A stretch of DNA of 64,000 bases from the NCBI RefSeq assembly GCF_000478825.2, contig NZ_CP007542.1, positions 2,542,001 through 2,606,000 of the forward strand. The letters are read 5' to 3'. The notes beneath the pieces were generated by a model. It did not search any database. It was not told the origin of the DNA and saw nothing but the letters and a program-made list of their open reading frames with translations. Source of the DNA: Synechocystis sp. PCC 6714. GTDB taxonomy: Bacteria; Cyanobacteriota; Cyanobacteriia; Cyanobacteriales; Microcystaceae. This document shows positions 10,724-62,637 of the stretch, piece after piece (position 1 is the first letter of the stretch; each line of letters starts with the position of its first letter). A program made the translations under genes and the position numbers.

Positions 10724-10773
10724 ATCCTACCACTGACCTACGGTTACCATCTGGGTTTGTCAAGAACTGTAAC
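10724..10773 (-). promoter_or_regulatory. psaD promoter with HLR1-like element
   Basis: On the minus strand GTTACAGT and TTGACAAA form a direct repeat with a 10-base period (10773-10756), resembling HLR1, the binding site of the response regulator RpaB: (G/T)TTACA(T/A)(T/A) twice with a 2-base spacer. A -10-like TAGGAT lies at 10729-10724. If that is used, the repeat falls at about -56 to -39, where RpaB activates photosystem I genes in low light. The repeat has two mismatches to the consensus. Confidence 0.55.
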
Positions 10774-57784: not shown

Positions 57785-59302
57785 ATGAAAAATTTGTCTA
57801 GAATCCCTAAAGCCCTATTTTCTGGCCCCAATGCCCGGCAACGGTTTGCTCTGCTGGCGGCCCTGGTGATGGCGATCGCCGTTTTTAGCAATGTTTATCT
57901 CAATCCTGCCATTGCTAGGGATCTGGGAGGCCAACCCAAAACCCATGACCAATTAACTTTTCCACCTTTACCGGAAATCACCCTGCCGGACTACGAACGC
58001 TATACCTTGCCCAATGGTTTGGTGGTTTATCTGATGCCTGACCGGAGACTGCCCCTGGTGTCTGGCTCCGTGGTGATGCGGGTAGGCTCCCGTTGGGAAC
58101 CGGCGGATCAGGTGGGCTTAGCCCAGTTAACTGGGACAACCATGCGCCTGGGAGGGACAGAAAAATATCCCCCAGGGGAACTTAACACTCTGTTGGAGCA
58201 AAAGGCCGCCGCCATCGAAACCAGTATTGGCACCGCTTCCGGTTCCGCCAGCTTTTCTGCCCTGAGTAAGGATTTTGACCAGGTATTTGATCTGTTTGCC
58301 CAGGTAGTTCAAAACCCAGCCTTTGATGAAGCCCAAATTAGCTTGGCTAAGAACCAAATTCGAGGCGGCATTGCCCGTCGTAACGATGATCCAGGGGATA
58401 TTGCCAGTCGGGAATTTATCAAAATGCTCTACGGCCCCACCAGTCCCTACGCCCGGACAGTGGAGTACCAAACTTTAGCCAATATTGACCGCCAGGATAT
58501 TGTCGATTTTCATCGGCGCTACATCCGTCCTGACCAAATGATTTTGGGCATTGTCGGAGACTTTAACGGCGAAACCATTAAGCAGACCATTGCGGAAAGG
58601 TTTGGTAATTGGCAGGTGTCGGGCACTGCGCCCCAATTAACGCCGCCGGACGCTAGCCAAGTTAATGACAGTGAAGTTTTTTTGGTGGATTTACCCCACG
58701 TTACCCAGAGCAACGTTCTACTGGGACAAATTGGCGGCATGGTGGACAGCCCTGACTATGCTTCTCTATCGGTGATGAATGGGGTTTTAGGGGGCTTTGC
58801 CGGACGGTTATTTAACAATATCCGTTCCCAACAGGGCTTAGCCTATAGCGTTTCCGGTAGTTGGCAGGCCCGCTATGACTACCCGGGTTATTTTCTGGCC
58901 GGCGGCCCCACCCGTACGGAAACCACAGTGCAATTTCTCCAATCTTTACTAGAGGAATTTGAGCAGCTACGGACTACAGAAGTGACTCCGACGGAATTAG
59001 CCTATGCCAAGGACTCGATTTTGAATTCCTTTGTGTTTAACTTTGAACAACCAGGGCAAACCCTTTCCCGTCTGATGACCTATGAGTATTATGGGTATCC
59101 GGAGGATTTTATTTTCACCTACCAACAGGCTGTTATGGATACTACGGTGGAGGATGTGCAACGGGTGGCGGCTAAGTATCTTCGCCCGGAACAGATGATT
59201 GCGGTCATTGTGGGGCAAGGTGATGGCCTTAGGCCAAAACTAGAGGCCCTAAATCGCCGAGTGGAAGTTTTGGACATTGCTATTCCTGAAGCCAATAGTT
59301 AA
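57785..59302 (+). CDS. M16-family protein without zinc motif (non-catalytic partner)
   Basis: A 505-residue exported protein. A signal peptide (LLAALVMAIAVFSNVYLNPA) is followed by two M16 domains. In the first, the HxxEH zinc motif is absent: the position reads VGLAQLTGTTMRLGG. The second keeps the Arg-Tyr pair (NNIRSQQGLAYSVSGSW) that completes the site of a catalytic partner in M16B pairs. So it probably acts as the non-catalytic half of a heterodimeric periplasmic protease. No HxxEH partner is in the window. It ends 7 bases before the next gene. Confidence 0.88.
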   Translation: MKNLSRIPKALFSGPNARQRFALLAALVMAIAVFSNVYLNPAIARDLGGQPKTHDQLTFPPLPEITLPDYERYTLPNGLVVYLMPDRRLPLVSGSVVMRVGSRWEPADQVGLAQLTGTTMRLGGTEKYPPGELNTLLEQKAAAIETSIGTASGSASFSALSKDFDQVFDLFAQVVQNPAFDEAQISLAKNQIRGGIARRNDDPGDIASREFIKMLYGPTSPYARTVEYQTLANIDRQDIVDFHRRYIRPDQMILGIVGDFNGETIKQTIAERFGNWQVSGTAPQLTPPDASQVNDSEVFLVDLPHVTQSNVLLGQIGGMVDSPDYASLSVMNGVLGGFAGRLFNNIRSQQGLAYSVSGSWQARYDYPGYFLAGGPTRTETTVQFLQSLLEEFEQLRTTEVTPTELAYAKDSILNSFVFNFEQPGQTLSRLMTYEYYGYPEDFIFTYQQAVMDTTVEDVQRVAAKYLRPEQMIAVIVGQGDGLRPKLEALNRRVEVLDIAIPEANS

Positions 59303-59309
59303 TAGGGCT

Positions 59310-60488
59310 ATGGCTGGCGTTGGCAAAAAAACAGGGGTGGTGGTCACAGGCATTGGTTTACGTACTGGCCTAGGCGATCGCCAAGAAACCTGGCAGCAAT
59401 TATTACAGGGCCAAACGGCCATCAAGCTGGAACAACCTTTTCTTAATTTGCCACTGTTACCCCTTGCTCTACTGGGGAATTGCCCTTGGGACCTGGAGCA
59501 ATTGATGCCGGATTTAGTCCGGGCAGCCCTTAACGATGCCCAGCTTAATTGCAGCACCAAAACCTGGGGAGTGGCGATTGGTTCTAGTCGGGCGAGCCAA
59601 GGCCATTGGGAAGATTGGGTAAGCAGTAATGCCCACCCTTCAGCACCGCCCAATTTTTCCCCCGTTGATTGGTGGCAAACTCTTCCGGATCAAGCCGCCC
59701 GTTTAGCGGCCCAACTTTTGCCAGAAGTGGAGGTGATGCAGTCTCCCATGGCCGCCTGTGCTACGGGGCTGTGGGCGATCGCCAAAGGGGTGGATCTCAT
59801 CAGGGAAGGTTATTGTCAAAGGGTTTTAGCTGGAGCTGTGGAGGCCCCCATTACGCCCTTGACCCTAGCGGGTTTTAGTAGAATGGCCACGTTGGCCCGG
59901 GATGGTTGTTATCCCTTTGATCGCCAACGGCAAGGTTTAGTGTTGGGGGAAGGGGGAGCCCTGTTGGTGCTGGAAACCCAGGAATTAGCCCAAAGCAGAA
60001 AGGCGAGAATTTACGGCGAAATTTTGGGTTGGGGTTTTAGTTGTGATGCTCTCCACCGCAGTACCCCCGCCTTTGATAACCGTAGTGCCCAAAAAGCTGT
60101 GGAGCATTGCCTTGCCCGCAGTGGTTTAACCCCAGAGCACATTGACTTAATCCATCCCCACGGCACCGGCACCTCCTTTAATGACCGACGGGAAGCCGCT
60201 TTAATCCAAACTCTTTTTCCTCAAAATCCCTCCATTACTTCCAGCAAAGGTGCCACTGGCCATACCCTAGGGGCCTCAGGGGCGATCGCCGTAGCTTTAA
60301 CTTTATTAAGCCTTCATCAGCAAAAATTGCCTCCCTGTGTTGGTTTGACAGAACCGGAATTTCCTCTAAACTTTGTCGGCGTTGAATCAGCTCAGCAAGC
60401 AACTAACCCTTTAAGCTATGGTCTCTGTCTCAGTTTTGGCTTTGGCGGTCAGAATGGGGCGATCGCCGTGGGCAATGGCATCGAATGA
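59310..60488 (+). CDS. fabF: Beta-ketoacyl-ACP synthase II type (FabF-like)
   Basis: Condensing enzyme of 392 residues. The nucleophile Cys is in MAACATGLWAIA, with active-site His in HGTGTSFNDRREA and GATGHTLGASGAIAVAL. The GFGGQNGA C-terminal motif is present. It elongates acyl chains or may act as a specialised KAS, because sequence around the Cys is less conserved than in housekeeping FabF. ATG at 59310, 7 bases after the M16 gene, so they share an mRNA. Confidence 0.88.
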   Translation: MAGVGKKTGVVVTGIGLRTGLGDRQETWQQLLQGQTAIKLEQPFLNLPLLPLALLGNCPWDLEQLMPDLVRAALNDAQLNCSTKTWGVAIGSSRASQGHWEDWVSSNAHPSAPPNFSPVDWWQTLPDQAARLAAQLLPEVEVMQSPMAACATGLWAIAKGVDLIREGYCQRVLAGAVEAPITPLTLAGFSRMATLARDGCYPFDRQRQGLVLGEGGALLVLETQELAQSRKARIYGEILGWGFSCDALHRSTPAFDNRSAQKAVEHCLARSGLTPEHIDLIHPHGTGTSFNDRREAALIQTLFPQNPSITSSKGATGHTLGASGAIAVALTLLSLHQQKLPPCVGLTEPEFPLNFVGVESAQQATNPLSYGLCLSFGFGGQNGAIAVGNGIE

Positions 60489-60515
60489 ATAAAATGAGCC
60501 AGGAGTCAAGCCTCG

Positions 60516-60544
60516 TTGACAAAAATTAACATTATGTTTACTAT
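60516..60544 (+). promoter_or_regulatory. psrR1 promoter with HLR1 repeat
   Basis: -35 TTGACA (60516-60521), 17-base spacer, -10 TACTAT (60539-60544). Overlapping the -35, TTGACAAA and TTAACATT form a direct repeat with a 10-base period (60516-60533). Each half has one mismatch to the HLR1 (RpaB) half-site. RpaB at the -35 would repress in low light, with release in high light. Confidence 0.75.
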
Positions 60545-60550
60545 GAAGTG

Positions 60551-60681
60551 GATAAGGTTATAGAAACCCAACAGACTTCCTTTGCAAGAACTATTAAGGG
60601 CGCAAGTTTTAGGGGTTTCGGTACCTTCCATTGACATTGAGTTCTCCTAGATATGCCCTCGGTTATGCCGGGGTATTTTTT
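60551..60681 (+). ncRNA. psrR1: High-light small regulatory RNA PsrR1 (SyR1)
   Basis: Transcript predicted from a start 7 bases after the -10 box to the end of the terminator, 131 bases, which matches the length I recall for PsrR1 of PCC 6803, known to lie between the fabF-type gene and hoxH. PsrR1 is induced by high light and represses photosystem I and phycobilisome mRNAs by base pairing near their start codons. The central sequence UUCCUUUGCAAGAACU fits an unpaired seed. Assignment uses position, promoter and terminator, not a search. Confidence 0.8.
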
Positions 60682-60682
60682 T
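60651..60682 (+). terminator. Rho-independent terminator of psrR1
   Basis: ATGCCCTCGG pairs with CCGGGGTAT (nine pairs, one bulged C, two G-U) over TTATG and is followed by seven T residues at 60676-60682. Confidence 0.85.
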
Positions 60683-60702: not shown

Positions 60703-62127
60703 TTAATCCCGCTGGATGGACTTAATTACTTCCCCCTGGGTATTCACTAAATCGATCAGCAATGGCATTTGTCCCGCCGCATGGGTGGAGCAACTGAGAC
60801 AGGGATCGTAACAACGAATGCCCGCTTCTACCCGGTTTAAAAAGCCTTCCTGCACATTGTTATTACGGATGTAATATTTAGCAATCTGGGCCACGGTTTT
60901 ATTCATGGCTAGGTTATTGTTGCCAGTGGCAATGATCAGGTTAACTTTTTCAATTAAGCCATCTTTATCTACTTTGTAATGGTGGAATAAGGTGCCCCGG
61001 GGTGCTTCACTCACCCCCACCGCTTCAGTACAATTGATTTCCGCCCTGGCCCGGCAATTTTTCGAGAGAATATCCCCATCATCCATCAATAATTCAATGG
61101 CTTCTAAGCAGGCCAAAATTTCCACTAAGCGGGCGTAATGGTAGAAGAAGGAAGATGTAGCCACACCGCCAGCCCGTTGTCGATACTCGTCCAATTCTCG
61201 ATCTGCTTCGGCGGTGCCAATGTAATGGCAAACATTGAGACGAGCTAAGGGCCCCACCCGATAAATGCCATCGGGATAGCCCAGGGGTTTGTAGTAGGGA
61301 AATTTTAAATAGGACCATTTTTCCACCGATTCCCCAATAAAATCAGCGTAATTATCTTCACTGAGATTATCGGCCACAATATTGCCTTCACTGTCCGTAA
61401 ACCGCAAATGGCCACCATAATGTTCCCATTCATTGTTTTTGCCCACTAAGCCCATAAATAGAGAAGGAAATTTACCAAATTCTGCCACTTCTGTTTCAAA
61501 ACGATCCAACAGATCTTTAAACAAATTTAAAGCTAGATAAATGGTTTGTTTTGCCTCTGGTAAACGATCCACAATCCACTGTCTTCCCTCTTCTGACAAC
61601 GGCGATCGGACTCCCCCCGGCACTGACCAAGCAGAGTGAATTTTCTTAGCGCCTAAAAGTTCAATTACCGTTTGGCCAAATTGCCGTAAACGGATACCAG
61701 CCCTAGCTAAATCAGGGTCGGAGGCGATTAGTCCAAAAACATTGCGGGTGGCGGGGTCACTATCCCAACCCAACAAAAAGTCAGGACTACTGAGATGGAA
61801 AAAACTCAGGGCATGGGATTGGGTGATTTGTCCTAAATTCATCAAGCGCCGTAGTTTTTCGCCGGCCGGAGGGATTTGCACTGCTAACAATTTATCTCCG
61901 GTTTTAGCAGCACAGAGAAGATGACTGACGGGACAAATGCCACAAATACGGGCGGTAATACCGGCCATTTCCCACATGGGGCGGCCTTCACAGAATTTTT
62001 CAAAACCCCGATACTCCACCACATGGAAGCGGACGTCGTCCACATTTCCCTGATCGTTGAGAAAAATAGAAATTTTGGCGTGGCCTTCAATGCGGGTGAC
62101 GGGATCAATAACAATGGTTTTAGACAT
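60703..62127 (-). CDS. hoxH: Bidirectional NiFe-hydrogenase large subunit
   Basis: Large subunit carrying the Ni-Fe active site, 474 residues. The first ligand motif is [12 protein letters not shown] and the last is DPCLSCSTH. The C-terminal extension after DPCLSCSTH (about 25 residues, AAGQMPLL to SIQRD) is removed by the HoxW endopeptidase on maturation. ATG at 62127. The HoxEFUYH enzyme exchanges electrons between hydrogen and NAD(P)/ferredoxin. Here hoxH is split from hoxY by a toxin-antitoxin pair. Confidence 0.98.
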
Positions 62128-62179
62128 GATAGCAAGCCAAATAATGTAATAATTTTTCTGACAAAATAATTGAATAAAA

Positions 62180-62608
62180 TCAACTGCTATTGGTGACAAC
62201 TAATTTTATTCCAGGGAAATTTTGTTGTACGAAATTAAAAAATTTTTTATCGCAGGTATGGAAGTCTATATCTAATCTTTCTGATAAAGCTAAATAATGG
62301 GCATCATAGGTGGTAGGTAATTGGAATTTTTCGGCGATCGCCAAAGCATCTTGATGTAGTTCTGAGTTTGGATAAAGTTCAATGCCAAGATTAAAAGTTT
62401 CTGTAAGAGCAATTTGAGCTTGACTGTAGGTAATCTGTTTAGTCCTGTTTAAATGCCATAAAACATTAGTTACTTCGTAGTTGATTAGATCAGTAGCAAT
62501 AATCTTAATATTTGCATTACACCATTCATTCCACATCTCAAGGTAGATAGTTTCCTCATAGTATCCAACAAGAAGTCGGAGGATGAAGTTTGAATCAATA
62601 CAAGTCAT
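62180..62608 (-). CDS. PIN-domain toxin (VapC-like)
   Basis: A 142-residue PIN-domain ribonuclease. The acidic residues are in [13 protein letters not shown], the NYEV helix, [12 protein letters not shown] and [13 protein letters not shown] at 62608; the frame extends to 62629 by an upstream ATG. VapC toxins cleave RNA such as initiator tRNA. The partner antitoxin is the frameshifted gene just upstream. This one looks intact, with all the usual acidic positions. Confidence 0.85.
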
Positions 62609-62637
62609 TGAGTAACTTTGATTGATCATATCAGGAA

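Follow-up and report, generated by a model that had tools for sequence, protein, structure and literature searches.

The psrR1 locus of Synechocystis sp. PCC 6714, its HLR1-like promoter repeat and the psb34-linked members of the PsrR1 family

The psrR1 locus and its RNA

The window analysed here is a stretch of 64,000 nucleotides from Synechocystis sp. PCC 6714 (NZ_CP007542.1, positions 2,542,001 to 2,606,000), and all coordinates below are counted from its first letter. Near its end, an intergenic spacer lies between a fabF-like beta-ketoacyl-ACP synthase gene and, on the opposite strand, the gene for the large subunit of a NiFe hydrogenase, which we take to be HoxH (Table 1); the open reading frames bounding the spacer reach to 60488 and 60703. 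Adjoining the hydrogenase genes is a 149-aa ORF (62180-62629, minus strand), which by eye resembles a PIN-domain (VapC-like) protein.

The spacer contains psrR1, the gene for a described cyanobacterial sRNA that slows the production of photosystem I proteins in strong light. A psrR1 locus at 60516-60682 had been proposed from the sequence, and the covariance search finds it: the match to the Rfam model RF02701 (PsrR1) is significant, runs over the full length of the model (positions 1-79) and scores 71.4 bits against a gathering threshold of 42. It is the sole Rfam match in the window at gathering thresholds and the single PsrR1 copy that an RF02701 search finds in the genome, and the phage records contain no PsrR1 match. 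According to the available part of PMC5386190, PsrR1 is among the sRNAs conserved between strains PCC 6803 and 6714 and is up-regulated in high light or upon CO2 depletion.

The -35 and -10 hexamers are separated by 17 nt and, judged by consensus only, match at 10 of 12 positions, and the intergenic spacer also holds a stem followed by a T run; the promoter and terminator of the original prediction are present as consensus matches. Taken alone, these scans are not significant, as the 801 bases scanned hold two promoter-like sites where shuffles give 1.3 and one terminator-like site where 1.0 is expected. A start at 60551, predicted from the position of the -10 hexamer, would give an RNA of 131-132 nt, in agreement with the 131 bases proposed earlier and with the 131 nt reported both for PCC 6803 (in the accessible text of PMC6202907) and for Synechococcus elongatus, where induction by high light is reported too. 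Upstream of the promoter, the GTCAAG block is identical and at the same spacing in all six aligned loci from Synechocystis and near relatives (G000, G014, G076, G080, G093, G133), which also have the -35 half-site TTGACAAAA in common.

The spacer could also be read as encoding a small protein, with the RNA match being incidental, since a 43-aa ORF does exist on the minus strand (60506-60637). The match to the whole length of the Rfam model, the terminator-like site on the plus strand and the conservation of the RNA core in the six aligned loci all speak against this, and we regard such a reading as hardly credible. We read the locus instead, with a probability of about 0.95, as psrR1 of Synechocystis PCC 6714, comprising a putative sigma-70-type promoter, an RNA of ~131 nt, predicted light control by RpaB through HLR1 and predicted pairing with psaL. 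It resembles PsrR1/SyR1 of Synechocystis PCC 6803 (RF02701) in family, in length (~131 nt), in its complementarity to the psaL ribosome-binding site and in having HLR1 on the promoter, and differs from it in coming from another strain.

Table 1. Features of the psrR1 locus and the flanking genes (positions in the window)
Feature	Position	Strand	Basis or remark
Beta-ketoacyl-ACP synthase (fabF-like), upstream neighbour	59277..60488	+	NF004618, 584.4 bits, cut-off 455
GTCAAG block, 5 nt upstream of -35	60505..60510	+	6/6 aligned loci
-35 hexamer TTGACA	60516..60521	+	consensus scan
HLR1-like direct repeat TTGACAAA-AA-TTAACATT, predicted RpaB site overlapping -35	60516..60533	+	14/16 consensus positions
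-10 hexamer TACTAT, 17-nt spacer	60539..60544	+	consensus scan
psrR1 transcript (predicted)	60551..60682	+	ends from -10 position, terminator and the 131 nt reported in PCC 6803
RF02701 PsrR1 match	60601..60678	+	71.4 bits, E 1.8e-11
Seed ATTGAGTTCTCCT, fully complementary to AGGAGAACTCAAT at psaL -17 to -5 (G000:C1:1931950-1931962)	60636..60648	+	13 Watson-Crick pairs
Intrinsic terminator, stem 60657-60673 and T run 60676-60682	60657..60682	+	sequence, scan
NiFe hydrogenase large subunit, downstream convergent neighbour	60703..62199	-	hydrogenase models match, all below cut-offs

The HLR1-like repeat over the -35 hexamer

We scored HLR1 against the consensus KTTACAWW-N2-KTTACAWW, with 16 specified positions, as given in the available part of PMC13421787. 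Both half-sites of the repeat at 60516-60533 deviate from it at the third base. If transcription starts at 60551, the repeat spans -35 to -18, which falls within the range of -38 to +23 that the same review, in the part available, gives for repression by RpaB; given this predicted start, the position is a repressing one, and the proposal of an HLR1 direct repeat over the -35 box holds. Agreement with the consensus is at 14 or 15 of 16 positions for HLR1 of each of the five relatives aligned (G014, G076, G080, G093, G133).

On its own, the motif proves little, because sites with up to two mismatches show no enrichment across the genome (113 + 89, or 202, compared with 112 + 107, or 219, for the reversed pattern) and because 14/16 is also reached once when the 200-nt region preceding the Rfam match is shuffled 40 times. 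The window contains only two sites of this score, one starting at 60516 on the plus strand and the other at 10756-10773 on the minus strand. Approximately 113/3.74 Mb x 21 = 6e-4 same-strand sites would be expected to start no more than 10 nt from any one base, although this figure is not independent, since TTGACA is itself nearly a half-site. The RNA might be PsrR1 while the repeat is simply a -35 box followed by an AT-rich spacer resembling the motif, with light control coming from elsewhere. The first half-site is indeed the -35 hexamer, and the genome-wide counts and the shuffles of the upstream region fit such an explanation as well. What argues against it is the recurrence of the motif: among the non-redundant free-standing PsrR1 relatives, HLR1 of at least 14/16 lies upstream of 24 of 28 copies as compared to 21 of 1120 shuffles (1.9%), and of at least 15/16 upstream of 17 of 28 as compared to 2 of 1120. 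RpaB control has, moreover, been published in PCC 6803 (PMC13421787 and PMC12850537, in the parts available), and we give the fortuitous origin of the repeat only a slim chance. The recurrence upstream of free-standing relatives is convincing evidence, at the sequence level, for HLR1 as a predicted RpaB site.

For these counts near-identical upstream regions were merged (34 free-standing ones into 28, and 45 psb34-linked ones, discussed below, into 30). Set apart were the window's own locus, seven second copies in genus g2 and seven matches below 42 bits, the last of which have HLR1 of 14/16 in 4 of 6 non-redundant cases; two of the five mixed-class copies were dropped, as was one psb34 copy whose upstream sequence was too short. 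The genome also contains an RpaB-like gene (L202), which is 92% identical to the query, a presumed RpaB receiver domain, the next three matches being at 47-51%.

In PCC 6803, RpaB binding and RpaB control of psrR1 are published, as cited in the accessible text of PMC12850537 and PMC13421787 (citing Kadowaki 2016), and high light induces psrR1 there by log2 ~3.7 (PMC12850537). The same two papers, as far as available, describe a dual repression of photosystem I genes, for which PMC13421787 uses the term RpaB-psrR1 "feed-forward loop"; the loop is named also in the available part of PMC6202907. The locus in the window is therefore an unremarkable psrR1 that has the control site already known for this gene. 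The original observation is confirmed, and its interpretation, repression by RpaB in low light and release in high light, is supported as right but not new, because RpaB control of psrR1 is already published for PCC 6803.

Complementarity to psaL and the proposed circuit

For the pairing analysis, the 56 nt at the start of every PsrR1 match were compared with psaL from -40 to +30, using mononucleotide shuffles and one psaL locus per genome in 27 of 28 genomes (G278 was left out), with starts set by a script rule. Scoring was by the longest run, full-length duplex energies having been set aside as less simple. The seed of G000 pairs with the psaL ribosome-binding site over 13 bp, a length that none of 200 shuffles attains. 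Complementarity of 13 bp is found in G000, G014, G080, G093 and G133 and of 12 bp for each of the two G095 copies, with 0 or 1 of 200 shuffles reaching the run length in these long-pairing copies (1 of 200 in G133). Owing to a single base difference in psaL, the run in G076 is cut to 7 Watson-Crick pairs, a length that 43 of 200 shuffles attain, and the sequences read by eye suggest that the mismatch can be bridged by a G-U pair. Overall, complementarity of at least 12 bp is seen in 7 of 42 sRNA-psaL pairs from the 27 genomes.

Within the genome of PCC 6714, sites complementary to the seed with up to two mismatches number 27, compared with 17 for the control; PsrR1 accounts for one of them, and 21 of the others were read. 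Among these 21, a long ORF follows a site with at most one mismatch only in the case of psaL, and the other three one-mismatch sites are followed by no ORF, by a 35-aa ORF and by a 65-aa TTG frame, respectively. Four two-mismatch sites precede ORFs of more than 200 aa (L265, L266, L269, L270). The targets reported in PCC 6803 are psaL, psaJ, chlN and cpcA (PMC6202907, available part). Upstream of psaL itself, the best HLR1 score within 400 nt is 12/16; for psaL, the loop's transcriptional arm was thus not seen. Folding of the single sequence gives a long 5' hairpin followed by an open seed, in a structure only modestly more stable than those of shuffles (z -1.68, with 11 of 200 at least as good), while in the consensus fold of four sequences most of the seed is base-paired to the segment just before it; the accessibility of the seed thus differs between the two folds.

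In the mechanism that we propose, the sigma-70-type promoter would start a non-coding RNA of ~131 nt at ~60551, whose 3' end would be set by the terminator near 60682. RpaB, bound to HLR1 over the -35 box, would block RNA polymerase as long as light is low; in high light it would leave and PsrR1 would be made. The segment 60636-60648 would then pair with the ribosome-binding site of the psaL mRNA and halt its translation. The steps of this circuit (control by RpaB, high-light induction and target repression) are taken from the PCC 6803 literature and can be expected to hold in PCC 6714.

PsrR1 sequences at the end of psb34

A survey of a phylum sample gave 100 RF02701 matches in 51 of 386 genomes, with more than one match in 28 of the 51. 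No match was found in any of 14 control genomes, S. elongatus among them, and, since S. elongatus reportedly has PsrR1, the model must miss some true members and these counts are lower bounds. As many as 46 of the 100 matches, in 30 of the 51 genomes, begin between -5 and +12 nt relative to where an intact ORF of psb34, a photosystem II assembly gene, ends (examples are L051, L056, L058 and L070). The linkage classes were set by a scripted rule (46 linked, 49 without psb34 upstream and 5 mixed), and on inspection the mixed class comprises two apparently intact psb34 genes (G101_C51_2197, G105_C3_30329), two decayed psb34 ORFs before the PsrR1 element (G382_C1_5887709, G338_C1_5940597) and one case with psb34 ~300 nt away (G284_C1_120845). 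The identity of Psb34 is supported by NCBIfam NF033486 in all three proteins tested, and one of the encoded proteins resembles PDB chain 7dxa_B, Tsl0063 (E 1.4e-6). The psb34 family has matches in 170 of the 386 genomes and linked PsrR1 is present in 30, so most psb34-bearing genomes show no linked PsrR1. The psb34 gene of PCC 6714 likewise has no PsrR1 match in the family search, and no relic was seen by eye in its flanks.

The psb34-linked copies share with the window locus the RF02701 match and a terminator-like end, and HLR1 is found upstream of the psb34 start: at least 14/16 positions within 80 nt in 28 of 30 non-redundant copies, compared with 46 of 1200 shuffles. They differ from it in their start, which lies no more than 12 nt from the stop codon of psb34 instead of following a separate promoter. 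The PsrR1 core and the terminator are kept downstream of that codon in the 40 aligned sequences, namely those of the 46 linked copies that score at least 42 bits, a conservation of the core that is partly by construction, since the aligned copies were chosen by the RF02701 model. The 3'-end-derived sRNAs of cyanobacteria, as described in the available part of PMC8136909, are a possible model for the psb34-linked copies, though not for the window locus. Seven genomes (G095, G097, G235, G237, G253, G312, G357) have second PsrR1 matches (L106, L107, L103, L104, L110, L092 and L102, respectively), which lie 33-44 nt behind an unrelated ORF and have a best HLR1-like score of 12/16.

Another difference from the window locus concerns psaL: across the 22 intact psb34-linked copies tested, the longest complementary run is 9 bp (3 of 200 shuffles as long), and thus no copy reaches 10 bp. 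Among 18 copies without psb34, 7 pair over at least 12 bp and the other 11, including the top-scoring one of G105, a genome of the same family, over 5 to 7, and so weak pairing occurs both with and without psb34 linkage. The members of RF02701 do not all share long psaL complementarity. A target search with GGAGAAGTCCAAATG in 8 genomes, allowing up to two mismatches, gave 149 sites (PsrR1 copies included) compared with 125 for the reversed pattern, with G042 standing out (27 compared with 12), and yielded no target for the psb34-linked copies. One GGAGAAGTCCAAATG match that recurs in all 8 genomes was rejected as a target, as it lies inside a conserved coding region in the 5 of 8 genomes read.

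We found no paper naming both PsrR1 and Psb34, which is no proof that the link is unpublished. The main text of PMC9458560 (on ssl1498) does not contain 'sRNA', 'RpaB' or 'HLR1', and PMC4734099, on heterocystous cyanobacteria, names PsrR1 nowhere but in the introduction and the reference list. As a tentative model, to which we give somewhat less than even odds, the PsrR1 family may be the 3' end of the psb34 mRNA in many cyanobacteria, with one transcript under RpaB/HLR1 giving both a photosystem II assembly protein and a processed high-light sRNA. Free-standing psrR1 could then derive from the psb34-linked copies or have given rise to them, and psaL pairing would be limited to near relatives of Synechocystis.

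In the window itself, the sequence is consistent with a second Synechocystis strain having the light-acclimation circuit that has been established in PCC 6803. Of more weight than this locus is the wider comparison, and the link to psb34 is the part worth following: nearly half of the sampled PsrR1 matches lie at the end of psb34, an arrangement in which a single transcript would couple photosystem II assembly with control by an sRNA.
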